Assembly (NCBI RefSeq): GCF_001663815.1
Contig: NZ_CP016027.1
Span: forward strand, 2,057,001-2,121,000
Source: Halothiobacillus diazotrophicus
Lineage (GTDB): Bacteria > Pseudomonadota > Gammaproteobacteria > Halothiobacillales > Halothiobacillaceae
Direction: 5' to 3'
Length of the DNA: 64,000 nt
Positions within the stretch are counted from its first letter, which is position 1. The number at the start of each line of letters is the position of its first letter. The position numbers and the translations under genes are program-made. The notes under the pieces are model-generated. The model saw only the letters and a list, made by a program, of their open reading frames with translations. It was not told the origin of the DNA and did no database searches. Below are positions 35,814 through 42,070 of the stretch, one piece after another.

Positions 35814-36911
35814 TCAGTTTTCTTCGTGCGTGCCAACGCAGAGGTCATACCACTCTTCGGTGTAGGGCGGAAGGGCGCGCGTCAGGTGCAGGATCTGCGC
35901 CTGATCGAGGTAGCCGCGCCGGTTCAGGGCGCAGGCCAGGGAAAAGTAGCGGGCTTCCCGCCGGAGTCGATCCAGATCCGGTGAGGGGCTGCAGATCAGG
36001 CGAATGGTGTTTTCAGGCAATCCCCATGCTTGGGCGATGCGGGCGCTGTAGGTCGGGATCAGGGCGCGGAAGCGTTTGAGGAAGGCTGGGCTGAGGAAGG
36101 GGCCGTTGAGGGTGCCCTGATGGAGCAGAGCAAACAGCCCCGTGTGTTCGAGCAGTACGGACAGATAAAGGTCGAATCCCAGGTTTTCATCGATCGCGGG
36201 TAAGGTGCTCTCCTCACCGGGGCGGGGCTTGTGTCGCAGCGCCAGGCGCAATGCATTGGCGGCGCGAAGGCTGACCGGCCAGATGTCGTGAATGAGCAGT
36301 GGGTTGATGCCGCTAACGGGCTTGGATACGGCAATCGGGCTGAACATGGCTGCGGCAACCACTTCCCGCATGCCGGAAAAACCCAGAAGCATCACGGCCT
36401 GCTCGATGGAGGTGACATTGTCGTGCCGGATCCGCATGGCGGGGCTGTTGATCAGCCGGAGTACCTGGGTGGCTATGGTCGGATCGGATTCAATCAATTC
36501 GGTCAGCGTCCGGATCGGCGTGGCTGGATTCTTCAGTGCCGTCATCAGCTTGGGAAGAATGTTGGGTAGCCGCGGCACGTAGTTTGTCAGCCGGGTCGGC
36601 GTTTCCTTCAGATCATCCGTGCGCTGCTTCAGCCAGGCGACTTCCGGCGCGGTCAGAGTCTGGCTCACACCTTTTTGCGATGGCGAGGCGTTCAACAGTT
36701 TTTCATAGAAGAGTGAGGAGACCGCCTCCGGGTCGGGGAAGTGGGACTCCAGGGCGGCTTCGCTGGGTTCGAAGCTTTGAGCGTTGCGCGGGTCGTGAGG
36801 GGGCAGGCGCAGGCCTCTTTGAGCTCGGTGATCTTTCTTGGCATGGATCGGGCGTCCGCCCTCAGCGGGCGGCAGCGAACCGGAGAACACCTGTTTGAGC
36901 CAATGCCACAT
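35814..36911 (-). CDS. HDOD domain signalling protein
   Basis: The 365-residue protein has a charged, probably disordered N-terminus and an HDOD domain from about 110 to 300. Family sequences are visible: VPRLPNILPKLMTALKNP, IRTLTELIESDPTIATQVLRLINSP, and VTSIEQAVMLLGFSGMREVVAAAMFSPI. HDOD domains resemble HD phosphohydrolases without the catalytic residues and act as signalling or output modules. It lies just upstream of bolA and the GGDEF-EAL gene in reading order on the opposite end of the cluster, 15 bases after bolA stop, so the three may be co-transcribed. Confidence 0.87.
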   Translation of the reverse strand: MWHWLKQVFSGSLPPAEGGRPIHAKKDHRAQRGLRLPPHDPRNAQSFEPSEAALESHFPDPEAVSSLFYEKLLNASPSQKGVSQTLTAPEVAWLKQRTDDLKETPTRLTNYVPRLPNILPKLMTALKNPATPIRTLTELIESDPTIATQVLRLINSPAMRIRHDNVTSIEQAVMLLGFSGMREVVAAAMFSPIAVSKPVSGINPLLIHDIWPVSLRAANALRLALRHKPRPGEESTLPAIDENLGFDLYLSVLLEHTGLFALLHQGTLNGPFLSPAFLKRFRALIPTYSARIAQAWGLPENTIRLICSPSPDLDRLRREARYFSLACALNRRGYLDQAQILHLTRALPPYTEEWYDLCVGTHEEN

Positions 36912-37273: not shown

Positions 37274-39592
37274 TCATAGCAACCCCACGCCCAGCATGGA
37301 GGATATTTCTTCCGGTTTGCCTGGGCGGCCGACTAGATAGCCTTGGAACGAGTCGCAGCCAAGTCCTTCGAGCAGGTCTCGCTCGTCCACTGTTTCGACC
37401 CCTTCTGCCACGACCTCGAGACCCAGTGCATGGCCCATCGCGATGATGGCCTTGACGATTTCCAAGTCCTTCGGATCGTCGAAGATATCGCGCACGAAGC
37501 CCTGATCGATCTTGAGCCGATCGAAGGAGAAGCGCGTGAGATAACTTAGGGAGGAGTAGCCGGTACCGAAGTCGTCAAGGGCGAGCTGCACGCCCAGGGC
37601 CTTCACTTCGGCGAGGGTGGCCGCCGCCTTGGCGGGTTCGATGACGAGCGAGGACTCGGTCAGTTCGAGCTCAAGCAGGTCGGGGTTGATGTTCGATTCG
37701 CCAAGGGCACTGCGTATCCGGTCCACAAAGCAGGGGGCGTGCAACTGGACGCTGGAAATATTGACGGCCACGCTGATGCGTTCGCCCAGTTGGTCTCGCC
37801 AGGCGGCGGCCTGACGGCATGCCTCATGCAGTACCCAGCCGCCGACTTCGATGATGAGCCCGGATTGTTCGAGCAGCGGCACGAATTGGTCCGGCCGTGC
37901 AGCCAGATCGGGACGGGGCGGGGACCAGCGTAGCAAGGCCTCCACGCCTGTAATCGCGAGGCTGTTGGCGTTTTGTTGAACCTGATAAACAAGACGGAAT
38001 CGATTTTCCGTCAGCCCCGAGCGCAGGGCGGTCAGGAGGTCGGAGCGCCAATTCTGCAATTCGGCGATGTGCGGCGAGAAGACGGCATGGCTGTTGCGCC
38101 CCAGTTCTTTGGCTTCGTACATGGCGGAGTCGGCCTGGTGCAGCATTTCATGAATGGCCTGACCGTGGTCGGGCCAGAGTACGATGCCCGTGCTGGCCGA
38201 GGTAAATATGCTGACGCCGTCGATCACGAAGGGCCGGGCCGTGATTTCCTTGATTCGCGCCCCCAGGGCATCCAGGCTGGTCGGCGCGTTATCCGCCGGC
38301 AGCAGCAGGGCGAACTCATCCCCGCCCATCCGCGCAATCAGGATTTGGTCCGAGGTGCACTCATGCTGAAGGCGATGAGCCATTTCCTGGAGCAGACGGT
38401 CTCCCCGGGCATGACCATAACTGTCGTTCACCGAACGGAAGTAGTCGAGATCGAACATGACGAGTGCCAGCTTCTGGCTGGATTTCTCGCGCTTGAGTTC
38501 GTCGATCCAGCGTTGCGCTTCCAGTTGGAAGCAGCGACGATTCAGGAGTCCGGTCAGTTCGTCCTGGCTGGCCAGGTTCTGGTAGCGTGCCTGAGCTTCC
38601 TGGCGCTCGGTCACGTCCCGACCGATGATGACCAGTACCTTGCGCCGGCCATCAATTTCGAACAACGGCAGCTTCAGGGTATCGAAGACACGGGTGCGCC
38701 CGCCGGGCAGCGGCAGCGTATCCATGGTCCGGACCAGCCGGCCGGTTTCCCAGGCGCGCAGATCGGTTGCGCTGTAGCGGGCGAAGGTGGCCCGGTACAT
38801 GGGGTGTGTCATGGCGGCCAGCTCGTCGTCGGTCTTGCCCCACCAGGCGATGTCCTGCAGATGGCAGAGATCCAGGGCCGATTCGTTGGCCAGCAGCCAG
38901 CGGCTATCGGCATCCTTGATGACGATGAAATCCGGCGTGGCGTCGATCAGGGTCCGCATCAGGCGTTCGTTGTCGCTGAGTGCGTGTTCCAATGCCTTCA
39001 TGGCCGTGATTTCGTGCGCCAGGATGAAGTCATGCAGGGCTGCCGAGGGCGGTGCCTGGATCGTCTGGCGCTGGAAAATGCGGGTTTTCCCCGTGCGATC
39101 CTGCACCGAGAGCTCCATCGGCGCGTCGGCCGTGTCGGAGAAAGCGGGCACTTGTCGGGTCAGTTGCGCGATGAGGGACTCATCCCGGGCGTCATTGGCA
39201 GCCTTGTTGAGAAATACCGTTGCCTGTTGTTCGTCGCGACCAATGACGAAATCGGGCAGGCGATCGAGCCAGCCAATGGCGTCTTCGGACAGGCGGGGGT
39301 AGGCGGAAACGTGCAGCAGTCGTGCCTGAGGCGTATGGGGCGAGGCCCAGCGGCCAAGATGCGTCAACGCAAGCCACCGAACGCGCCAGACCCAGCCTCG
39401 GGTTCCTTCGGTCGGCCCGTGGCGTCCGTGATCGTCGGACCAGGCGTCAAGATGTCCCAATGCGTCCAGAATCAGCGGCAGATCGTGCAGCTTGCCCGTC
39501 TGGGTGATGACCTGATGCGCGCGGATCTGACCTTGTTCCTCAAGGTCAATCCACAGCCAGGCATCGGCATAGTCGGTCATGACAGGCAGCAT
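37274..39592 (-). CDS. PAS-GGDEF-EAL cyclic-di-GMP signalling protein
   Basis: The 772-residue protein has an uncharacterised N-terminal region (1-200), then a PAS domain at about 207-332 (LMRTLIDATPDFIVIKDADS), GGDEF at 337-495 and EAL at 515-767. The cyclase signature GGDEF (423-427) is intact, but the RxxD inhibitory site is missing five residues upstream. The phosphodiesterase motifs EALLRW (551-556), ELTESSL and DDFGTGYSSLSYL (673-685) look complete. It may therefore act mainly as a c-di-GMP phosphodiesterase. No membrane segment is seen. The start could also be the ATG at 39580. Confidence 0.93.
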   Translation of the reverse strand: MLPVMTDYADAWLWIDLEEQGQIRAHQVITQTGKLHDLPLILDALGHLDAWSDDHGRHGPTEGTRGWVWRVRWLALTHLGRWASPHTPQARLLHVSAYPRLSEDAIGWLDRLPDFVIGRDEQQATVFLNKAANDARDESLIAQLTRQVPAFSDTADAPMELSVQDRTGKTRIFQRQTIQAPPSAALHDFILAHEITAMKALEHALSDNERLMRTLIDATPDFIVIKDADSRWLLANESALDLCHLQDIAWWGKTDDELAAMTHPMYRATFARYSATDLRAWETGRLVRTMDTLPLPGGRTRVFDTLKLPLFEIDGRRKVLVIIGRDVTERQEAQARYQNLASQDELTGLLNRRCFQLEAQRWIDELKREKSSQKLALVMFDLDYFRSVNDSYGHARGDRLLQEMAHRLQHECTSDQILIARMGGDEFALLLPADNAPTSLDALGARIKEITARPFVIDGVSIFTSASTGIVLWPDHGQAIHEMLHQADSAMYEAKELGRNSHAVFSPHIAELQNWRSDLLTALRSGLTENRFRLVYQVQQNANSLAITGVEALLRWSPPRPDLAARPDQFVPLLEQSGLIIEVGGWVLHEACRQAAAWRDQLGERISVAVNISSVQLHAPCFVDRIRSALGESNINPDLLELELTESSLVIEPAKAAATLAEVKALGVQLALDDFGTGYSSLSYLTRFSFDRLKIDQGFVRDIFDDPKDLEIVKAIIAMGHALGLEVVAEGVETVDERDLLEGLGCDSFQGYLVGRPGKPEEISSMLGVGLL

Positions 39593-39771
39593 GGGGCGGC
39601 AGCTGCTCAGGCGATTGGGGGTGCGTCAACATGCGGGGGGCATGGCGCGGCGATCGAGTTGAAGTCACATGGCGACAGCATATGAAAGGTCCTTTTTTCG
39701 AGCTGTGATGTCGGAATGCACATACGTTCCTGACAATGTAAGGATAGCTAAGAATGTGTGCAATGAATATT

Positions 39772-41037
39772 TCAACTGGATGACACCGGGCCATTCATGA
39801 TCTGCGGCGCGGTGACGTCACCATCCAGATAGATCCGGTCCTGGGCGATGCGAATGGCCACCGGTTGCAGGGGATGGCCTGCGCAGGGGCCTTTTGTGCA
39901 CAGGCCGCTCTGCGGGTCGAAATGGGCATTGTGCACGTCGCAGCGCAAGACACGGCCGGCGTTCCTTTCGACAAGATAGCCGCGACGTGCGTTGCGGGAC
40001 AGCGGGGAGCCATTGTGCGGACAGACGTTGGCAAAGGCCTGGATGCGGTTGTCGGTCCGTACGATCACGATACTGGGAATGCCCTGGATGGGGCGAACGC
40101 CCAAGGCGTCAGCAGGCCCGAGGTCGTCAAGTCGGCAAAGCGGTGCTTCGGTTTCCGCCTCGGTGCGTGCCAGATCCTCGAAGCCGGATTGCGCGATTTT
40201 CCGTTCCGCCAGTCGTGCACCGAAGGTGACCGCTTCGGGCCAGTTGTGCGCCGACAGCCGGGCATGGATCACGCCGGCGATCAGCGTGTCGCCGGCGCCG
40301 ACGCTATCCACCACCGACGCCACCGGCCGACTGGGAATGTGCTGGCATACCCCATCCGCTGCCGGGTCGCGCAGATAGGCCCCTTCGGCACCCCAGCCGA
40401 GGACCACTACCGCCTGCGGTACCCAGCTCGCCACCTCGGCCAAGAAGGCTTCCGGATCGGAAAATCCCCGCCCTTGGGCGAAGGCCCGGGAAAAGAAGAC
40501 GACATCGGGAAAGGGAAACAGCTGCTCGAGAAAGGGGCGTTCCTTTTCGATTTCCAGCGAGATCGGCTTTCCCGGATGCAGCTTTTTGGCCCAGGCAAGC
40601 ATGGCGGCCGTGTCCATGCAGTTTCGCCCTTCGAAGTGCAGCCAGTCGAAGGGCGCCAGGTCGATTTTGAAGAAGGGGCTGACGGTGTACTCCGGCAGGT
40701 CGCGGTAGTGGACGATGCTGCGGGAGCCCGTGGCCCGATTGAGCGTGATGTAGGACGTGGGTGCATGACCGTAGCCCAGGCGTTCGGCGTGACTGAGATC
40801 GATGCCCTGTCGTTCGAGCTTTTCCTGAATCAATCGACCGTCGGCGTCTTCGGTGAGTACGCCGGCAAAATGGGCCTGATGGTCGAACTGGCTCAGTACG
40901 GTGAGCATATTGACGACGTTGCCGCCGGTGCGTCGGTGTTGCGCCAGCGCCCGTACCTCGCTGTCTTCCGGCGGGTAGTTGTCGACTTCGTTGATGATAT
41001 CCAGGGTGGCGATTCCGACGCCTAAGATTCTGGCCAT
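39772..41037 (-). CDS. PfkB-family sugar kinase fused to a C-terminal Rieske [2Fe-2S] domain
   Basis: From ATG 41037 (GGAG upstream) the 421-residue protein begins as a ketohexokinase-like PfkB kinase: MARILGVGIATLDIINEVDN, TGGNVVNMLTVLSQ and the ATP/anion-hole motif VVDSVGAGDT with GAGD at 247-250. After about residue 300 a Rieske domain follows. Its cluster ligands are Cys339 and His341 in CPHNGSPL, and Cys366 and His369 in CDVHNAHF; GLCTKGPCAGHPL comes after. Both domains look complete in one uninterrupted frame. Such a pairing is unusual. The kinase substrate and the electron partner are unknown. A phosphodiesterase gene lies 43 bases upstream. Confidence 0.9.
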   Translation of the reverse strand: MARILGVGIATLDIINEVDNYPPEDSEVRALAQHRRTGGNVVNMLTVLSQFDHQAHFAGVLTEDADGRLIQEKLERQGIDLSHAERLGYGHAPTSYITLNRATGSRSIVHYRDLPEYTVSPFFKIDLAPFDWLHFEGRNCMDTAAMLAWAKKLHPGKPISLEIEKERPFLEQLFPFPDVVFFSRAFAQGRGFSDPEAFLAEVASWVPQAVVVLGWGAEGAYLRDPAADGVCQHIPSRPVASVVDSVGAGDTLIAGVIHARLSAHNWPEAVTFGARLAERKIAQSGFEDLARTEAETEAPLCRLDDLGPADALGVRPIQGIPSIVIVRTDNRIQAFANVCPHNGSPLSRNARRGYLVERNAGRVLRCDVHNAHFDPQSGLCTKGPCAGHPLQPVAIRIAQDRIYLDGDVTAPQIMNGPVSSS

Positions 41038-41080: not shown

Positions 41081-41629
41081 TTATGCCGAATCGGCGTGGG
41101 CGGTCGGAAGCGTCCGAGTTTCGATGCGCCATTCCTGCGGGGTCGCATGCAGCAGCAGGCAGCCCGCGCCGCCGTAGGCGCGGACACGCCCCGCAGCGCC
41201 GGGGTTCAGGACCCAGGTCGGCGCGCTGGTGTCAATGCAGCGTTGGTGCGTATGGCCATAGACGATGGCGCGCGCCTCCGGATGTCGGGCGCGGAGTTTT
41301 TCGTGACGGACGTGGGCAGGTGTGACCCGGTGGCCATGTTCGACGACCAGTAGTCCGCCCGGCAGTTTGAGCTGGGCGATTTCGGGCAGGGTGTTCAGCA
41401 GGTGAGCCGTACCGCTCGGCCATTGTTCCGGCGTGTCGTTGTTGCCGCGGACGGCGATGACGTGACCGGAACGGGGCGTGACGCGACGCAGGATGTCAGG
41501 GTCGAGGATGTCGCCGGCATGGACGATGACATCACACTGCTCCATGACCGCGAGAATGGCGTTTTCTATTACGCCATGCGTATCGGAAATGATTCCGACA
41601 CAAACTGCGTCTTGCGTTTCAAGATCCAC
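41081..41629 (-). CDS. MJ0936/YfcE-type metallophosphodiesterase
   Basis: The protein has the calcineurin-like phosphodiesterase site: VGIISDTHGVIENA, VIVHAGDILDP, VRGNNDT, VVEHGHRVTP and YGHTHQ, followed by VLNPGAAGRVRAYG. I choose the GTG at 41629 because AGGAGG lies four bases before it, giving 182 residues, the usual length. An ATG at 41686 would add 19 residues unlike the family. Members hydrolyse small phosphodiesters in vitro; the native substrate is unknown. It precedes the PfkB-Rieske gene by 43 bases and is probably co-transcribed. Confidence 0.88.
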   Translation of the reverse strand: MDLETQDAVCVGIISDTHGVIENAILAVMEQCDVIVHAGDILDPDILRRVTPRSGHVIAVRGNNDTPEQWPSGTAHLLNTLPEIAQLKLPGGLLVVEHGHRVTPAHVRHEKLRARHPEARAIVYGHTHQRCIDTSAPTWVLNPGAAGRVRAYGGAGCLLLHATPQEWRIETRTLPTAHADSA

Positions 41630-42070
41630 GCCCCCTCCTCTGTGGTCTTCGTTGTCGACTCGATGGCGTTCTGTTCGACGCGGCATCTATCCAGATGTTC
41701 CGCATCGGCTTTCCACAGTATGGGTGGCCGACCTCATTCTGTCACCTGCCAAGCATCAGCCTACCCGCGAAAGCCCGGCATGTCGATAATGCACATGAGA
41801 TCAATTTCCATTTAATACAGCGTGTTCCCGGATTCCCGCCCCGAATGAACCGGTCGGTATGTCGGGCGCGGCCCTGAGATCGGGGCGCCGAGCGCCCGCG
41901 TGGACAGGGTTGCCGTCGCCCCCCCGTGCGGAGCGGCTAATGTGGCCCGGGAGAGGCTCCGGAGCAGGCCGGGGTCGGTTTTCCGGGGTGAGGGACGTAT
42001 CATGCATGCATGAGGCGTCTGCAGACGACGGTTGTGAATCGCCTTTCTTCGTTACCGTGAAAATTTTCCC
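41630..42070. other. Intergenic region (441 bp) between divergent phosphodiesterase and rlmJ
   Basis: I find no convincing gene. A leftward open frame crosses from rlmJ into this gap but is antisense to rlmJ and has no family features. A GC-rich hairpin, GGGCGC/GCGCCC with a three-base loop (41883-41897), and GCTCCGGAGC near 41958 are present without T tracts. Left and right promoters presumably lie here but no clear match was identified. Composition changes from AT-rich (around 41800) to very GC-rich (41870-41980). Confidence 0.4.

Follow-up and report, generated by a model that had tools for sequence, protein, structure and literature searches.

Why should a sugar kinase carry a Rieske iron-sulfur domain? 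Rieske clusters are electron carriers of respiration and oxygenases, and they are not known to form part of sugar kinases. The question is raised by one gene of the sulfur-oxidizing bacterium Halothiobacillus diazotrophicus, whose 2.9 Mb genome is assembled as one contig, and from which a stretch of 64,000 nucleotides (the window) was analysed. An initial annotation had described an uninterrupted frame encoding a ketohexokinase (KHK)-like kinase and an intact Rieske domain in one protein. This description holds: from the ATG at position 41037 down to its stop codon the frame has no internal stop, and it lies on the minus strand, which the annotation had not given. The motif positions (GAGD, CPH and CDVH) also agree with our reading (Table 1). 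The frame is open as far upstream as a GTG at 41187, but this earlier start was rejected because homologues begin at the ATG (MARILG...). Codon-position GC is similar in the kinase and Rieske parts of the gene, and the closest named relatives are Halothiobacillus.

Table 1. Features of the kinase-Rieske fusion gene, in window coordinates.
Feature	Residues	Position	Strand	Basis
Complete fusion gene, KHK-like kinase plus Rieske domain	421 aa	39772..41037	(-)	
KHK-like PfkB kinase domain	1-288	40174..41037	(-)	Pfam match, fold, pocket residues
GAGD motif, catalytic Asp250	247-250	40288..40299	(-)	motif
Inter-domain linker	289-300	40138..40173	(-)	least confident inter-domain stretch of model
Rieske-type [2Fe-2S] ferredoxin domain	301-410 (Pfam 299-387)	39808..40137	(-)	Pfam, profile, model
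CPH, cluster ligands Cys339 and His341	339-341	40015..40023	(-)	motif
CDVH, cluster ligands Cys366 and His369	366-369	39931..39942	(-)	motif
CTKGPC, extra Cys-x4-Cys of the Rieske subfamily	380-385	39883..39900	(-)	kept in 84 of 85 members

The fusion is conserved throughout the family. A match to the protein is present in 26 of the 27 Halothiobacillaceae genomes and is full length in 25, several of which are single-contig assemblies. One of these 25 (G024) has a stop reported in the matched stretch; its open frame reads fused, at 412 aa. In the 26th genome (G006, 64% complete) the match extends to query residue 315 and has a stop inside it, and the genome without a match (G007) is 85% complete. 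Elsewhere in the phylum, two of 398 sampled genomes carry the fusion, both from the same class. The initial annotation had suggested such a survey of PfkB plus Rieske architectures and their taxonomic spread, naming an isolated error among the outcomes that would overturn it; the family-wide fusion, together with neighbouring separate genes in many other gammaproteobacteria (see below), rules that outcome out. Plasmid-borne spread was rejected, as there was no plasmid match.

The kinase domain is a PfkB carbohydrate kinase: residues 2-285 score 98.3 bits against Pfam PF00294 (gathering score 25.8) and contain the GAGD motif. Within this family ketohexokinases are closest in both sequence and fold. 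They lead a sequence search of the PDB (E about 1e-49 to 1e-46, best 1.3e-49) and account for all of the top 21 Foldseek matches to the predicted model, at ∼ 36% identity and rmsd 1.3-3.1. In human KHK-A, D15, N42, N45, K174 and D258 contact fructose and R141 is a further pocket residue (PMC11332825). The equivalents in the window protein (D13, N40, N43, K165, D250 and R138, respectively) do not vary among 36 homologues, whether or not these carry a Rieske domain. The protein thus resembles animal KHK (PDB 2hqq, 9p6q) in sequence, fold and pocket and catalytic residues, but it is bacterial, carries a C-terminal Rieske domain and has a predicted activity. With PfkB-type fructokinases and Escherichia coli YihV it has the PfkB fold in common; similarity to these is lower (∼ 22% for YihV) and they lack the Rieske domain. 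Sequence and fold confirm the kinship to ketohexokinase. Fructose is probably the substrate, and by KHK chemistry ATP-dependent phosphorylation would take place at C1.

The Rieske domain scores 43.1 bits against Pfam PF00355 (residues 299-387, gathering score 20.3) and has the C-x-H and C-x2-H ligand pairs. To place it, a profile was built solely from the separately encoded Rieske genes that partner related kinases in other genomes (see below). Because the fused domain of the window scores 69.0 bits with this profile, compared with 25.8 for the other Rieske protein of the genome, we assign it to the same subfamily. The four ligands and an additional Cys-x4-Cys (C-x-x-G-P-C) are kept in 84 of 85 subfamily members and in every fused protein examined. 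When residues 291-410 were modelled by themselves (pLDDT 86.9), the structural matches were dioxygenase ferredoxins and NirD. The fused domain shares with CarAc, BphA3 and NirD the four cluster ligands and a Rieske fold of ferredoxin type; unlike them it is fused to a kinase, is only ∼ 20% identical, has the near-invariant Cys-x4-Cys and has no oxygenase or nitrite reductase recognised beside it. It does not classify as a dioxygenase Rieske ferredoxin, being far under the cut-off of the curated HcaC and AndAb models and having no oxygenase among the nearest genes identified, nor as NirD (TIGR02378, 18.0 bits versus a cut-off of 74.65). An AlphaFold model of the whole fusion (36 sequences) has a mean pLDDT of 92.2, with both domains folded, and a pTM of 0.79, which leaves the domain orientation unsettled. 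The linker is short and its length varies among homologues.

How the two domains came together is suggested by other gammaproteobacteria. Among 369 genomes the kinase is present in 102 and the related Rieske protein in 141 (among the matches listed; the overall tally is 143), and 59 have both. In 39 of these 59 the two are fused (9) or adjacent (30); adjacency in 30 of the 50 unfused genomes is far above chance. The adjacent pairs belong to the same kinase family and the same Rieske subfamily as the fusion, and differ from it in being two genes instead of one polypeptide. Gene order is reversed in one adjacent case (L196). Of ∼ 90 distinct kinases, 30 are fused, 16 have a separate Rieske gene immediately behind them, and near 44 there is none. 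The best explanation is that the fusion arose from a conserved gammaproteobacterial pair in which the kinase gene is followed by a small Rieske gene. Three changes to the fused state are needed on each of the two trees, kinase and Rieske, although a single origin retains a small probability. That the conserved pairing exists as a fusion in certain lineages and as neighbouring genes in others implies that selection has favoured joint action of the two proteins. The dependence is not strict on the kinase side: 63 of the 102 kinase genomes have no linked Rieske gene, and 43 of those lack the Rieske subfamily altogether. Each part comes from a known family, and what appears to be new is the combination, its conservation and its split-gene counterpart; no description of the fusion, its family-wide conservation or the split genes was found in the literature searched, which excluded most subscription journals.

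Where would the fructose come from? In the genome of H. diazotrophicus three sucrose genes overlap or abut (L208 4705-9217, G000:C1 about 2340700-2345200); they encode a GH100 invertase, a sucrose-phosphate synthase (SPS) that includes an SPP domain, and an SPP-like protein. The fusion gene lies outside this operon. Across gammaproteobacteria the kinase co-occurs with such genes. With one genome per family (G027-G183, a reading of the genome numbering), the counts for both, kinase only, sucrose family only and neither are 26, 18, 15 and 99 for PF00862 (P = 1.7e-8) and 14, 30, 1 and 113 for GH100 (P = 3.6e-8), in Fisher tests that use no tree, that leave in relatedness above the family level and for which the sucrose families were picked after earlier results had been seen. 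The GH100 invertase is found mostly where the KHK-like kinase is, in 33 of its 41 genomes among the 369 sampled and in 14 of 15 with one per family. Within kinase-bearing families the Rieske protein does not track the sucrose genes (18/10/10/6, P = 1), so the sucrose link concerns the kinase and not the Rieske protein; for the same reason, and because so many kinase genes are unlinked, the kinase can evidently work without a Rieske partner. Since H. diazotrophicus itself has the genes for sucrose synthesis and for invertase with which the kinase co-occurs, the most likely task of the kinase is to phosphorylate fructose derived from sucrose. Judged from sequence, a part in sucrose turnover is about an even call.

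We therefore consider a model in which invertase would release fructose from the cell's own sucrose and the kinase would phosphorylate it, two steps suggested by homology and co-occurrence. The attached one-electron [2Fe-2S] centre might then tune kinase activity to the redox state; alternatively, it might dock to an electron-transfer partner, giving or taking electrons. As a whole, a working KHK-family kinase that acts on sucrose-derived fructose, with a [2Fe-2S] centre coupling its activity to redox state, is a plausible proposal that falls somewhat short of an even chance. Redox control of the kinase, taken by itself, is put forward tentatively, as would be the oxygen sensing that the initial annotation had raised. 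In its strictest form, in which the redox state of the cluster directly sets kinase activity, in trans where the proteins are separate, and so ties the recycling of sucrose-derived fructose in sulfur oxidizers to electron supply, the idea is possible and rather unlikely. There is a precedent in Chloroplast Sensor Kinase, where an Fe-S cluster gates kinase activity (PMC6949291). It differs from the fusion in its cluster type, [3Fe-4S], and, as a histidine protein kinase, has no relationship to it in either sequence or substrate. If redox gating were true, it would be a new way of tying carbon use to energy supply, and a role would be assigned for the first time to a widespread Rieske subfamily that is so far uncharacterised.

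The domain could instead pass electrons to an oxygenase or reductase independently of the kinase, the tether serving to keep the two co-expressed or co-localized and leaving the kinase reaction unaffected. We regard this as a serious minority view. The fold is of the ferredoxin type, the nearest solved relatives being dioxygenase ferredoxins and NirD, and the linker is short and variable, both of which would suit a carrier. In addition, 82 genomes have the Rieske subfamily and no kinase was found in them, so the subfamily must have roles that are independent of the kinase. Its settings are varied: neighbours of the stand-alone Rieske genes differ between lineages and, where the kinase was not found, are unrelated to one another. 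A common operon function for the stand-alone genes was accordingly dropped, guilt by association having given no answer. Two of the genomes in which the kinase was not found illustrate this, one with the gene order RluC, HAD phosphatase, Rieske, SppA-like (L179) and one with a Rieske gene of the same subfamily directly before an SppA-like gene (L180). At two further loci (L167 6405-7168 and L196 5464-7100) a small YjbQ-like gene, identified by eye, directly precedes the Rieske gene; the kinase gene comes next in L196 and not in L167. Against a mere tether, none of the nearest genes identified in the window was recognised as encoding an oxygenase or a ferredoxin reductase, and the three changes to the fused state on each tree, with repeated adjacency to one kinase, suggest a specific relationship.

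The kinase might also act on a sugar other than fructose, with the redox centre belonging to that pathway. No NCBIfam equivalog fits the kinase at cut-off, the best being ribose-1-phosphate kinase (64.9 bits versus 330), and after the ketohexokinases the nearest fold is that of the sulfofructose kinase YihV, at 22% identity. Furthermore, a ROK kinase elsewhere in the genome has fructokinase as its nearest model (392 bits, short of the cut-off of 443), so the fusion kinase need not be the only fructokinase; its candidacy as sole fructokinase is weakened by this gene. The fusion is the sole PfkB protein of the genome, and no PfkB-family 1-phosphofructokinase is present there, although KHK chemistry would give fructose 1-phosphate. 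We nevertheless consider another sugar unlikely, given that none of the six pocket and catalytic residues of KHK varies among the homologues and that the kinase co-occurs with invertase and sucrose glycosyltransferases. The same two lines of evidence point to fructose, an ordinary substrate, and do not bear out the unexpected substrate that the initial annotation had raised.

A further reading, that in the Halothiobacillus lineage the Rieske domain is clusterless and has a purely structural or binding function, would fit the long branches of the Halothiobacillus domains on the tree, their identity of only ∼ 24-32% to stand-alone members, and the lower conservation of the Rieske domain than of the kinase in wider comparisons. 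It is very improbable, since every fused protein examined retains the four ligands and the Cys-x4-Cys and since in close pairs the Ka/Ks of the Rieske domain (0.07-0.12) is about equal to the low value of the kinase (0.08-0.11). Both domains are under purifying selection. This selection and the full-length fusions across the family, single-contig genomes included, lead us to reject a sequencing or assembly artefact, in favour of which nothing was seen, with near certainty.

ARAGORN identified no tRNA or tmRNA gene in the window (1-64000). A 570-aa open frame (37973-39685, plus strand) lies antisense to a PAS-GGDEF-EAL gene and is most likely a high-GC shadow frame, not a gene. The PAS-GGDEF-EAL gene itself (37274-39592, minus strand) is situated ∼ 180 bp downstream of the fusion gene, with an HDOD gene (35814-36911, minus strand) further downstream. 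A calcineurin-like phosphoesterase gene (41081-41686, minus strand) ends 43 bp before the start of the fusion gene, and the two are possibly co-transcribed. Other Halothiobacillus loci likewise have the PAS-GGDEF-EAL and HDOD genes next to the fusion.
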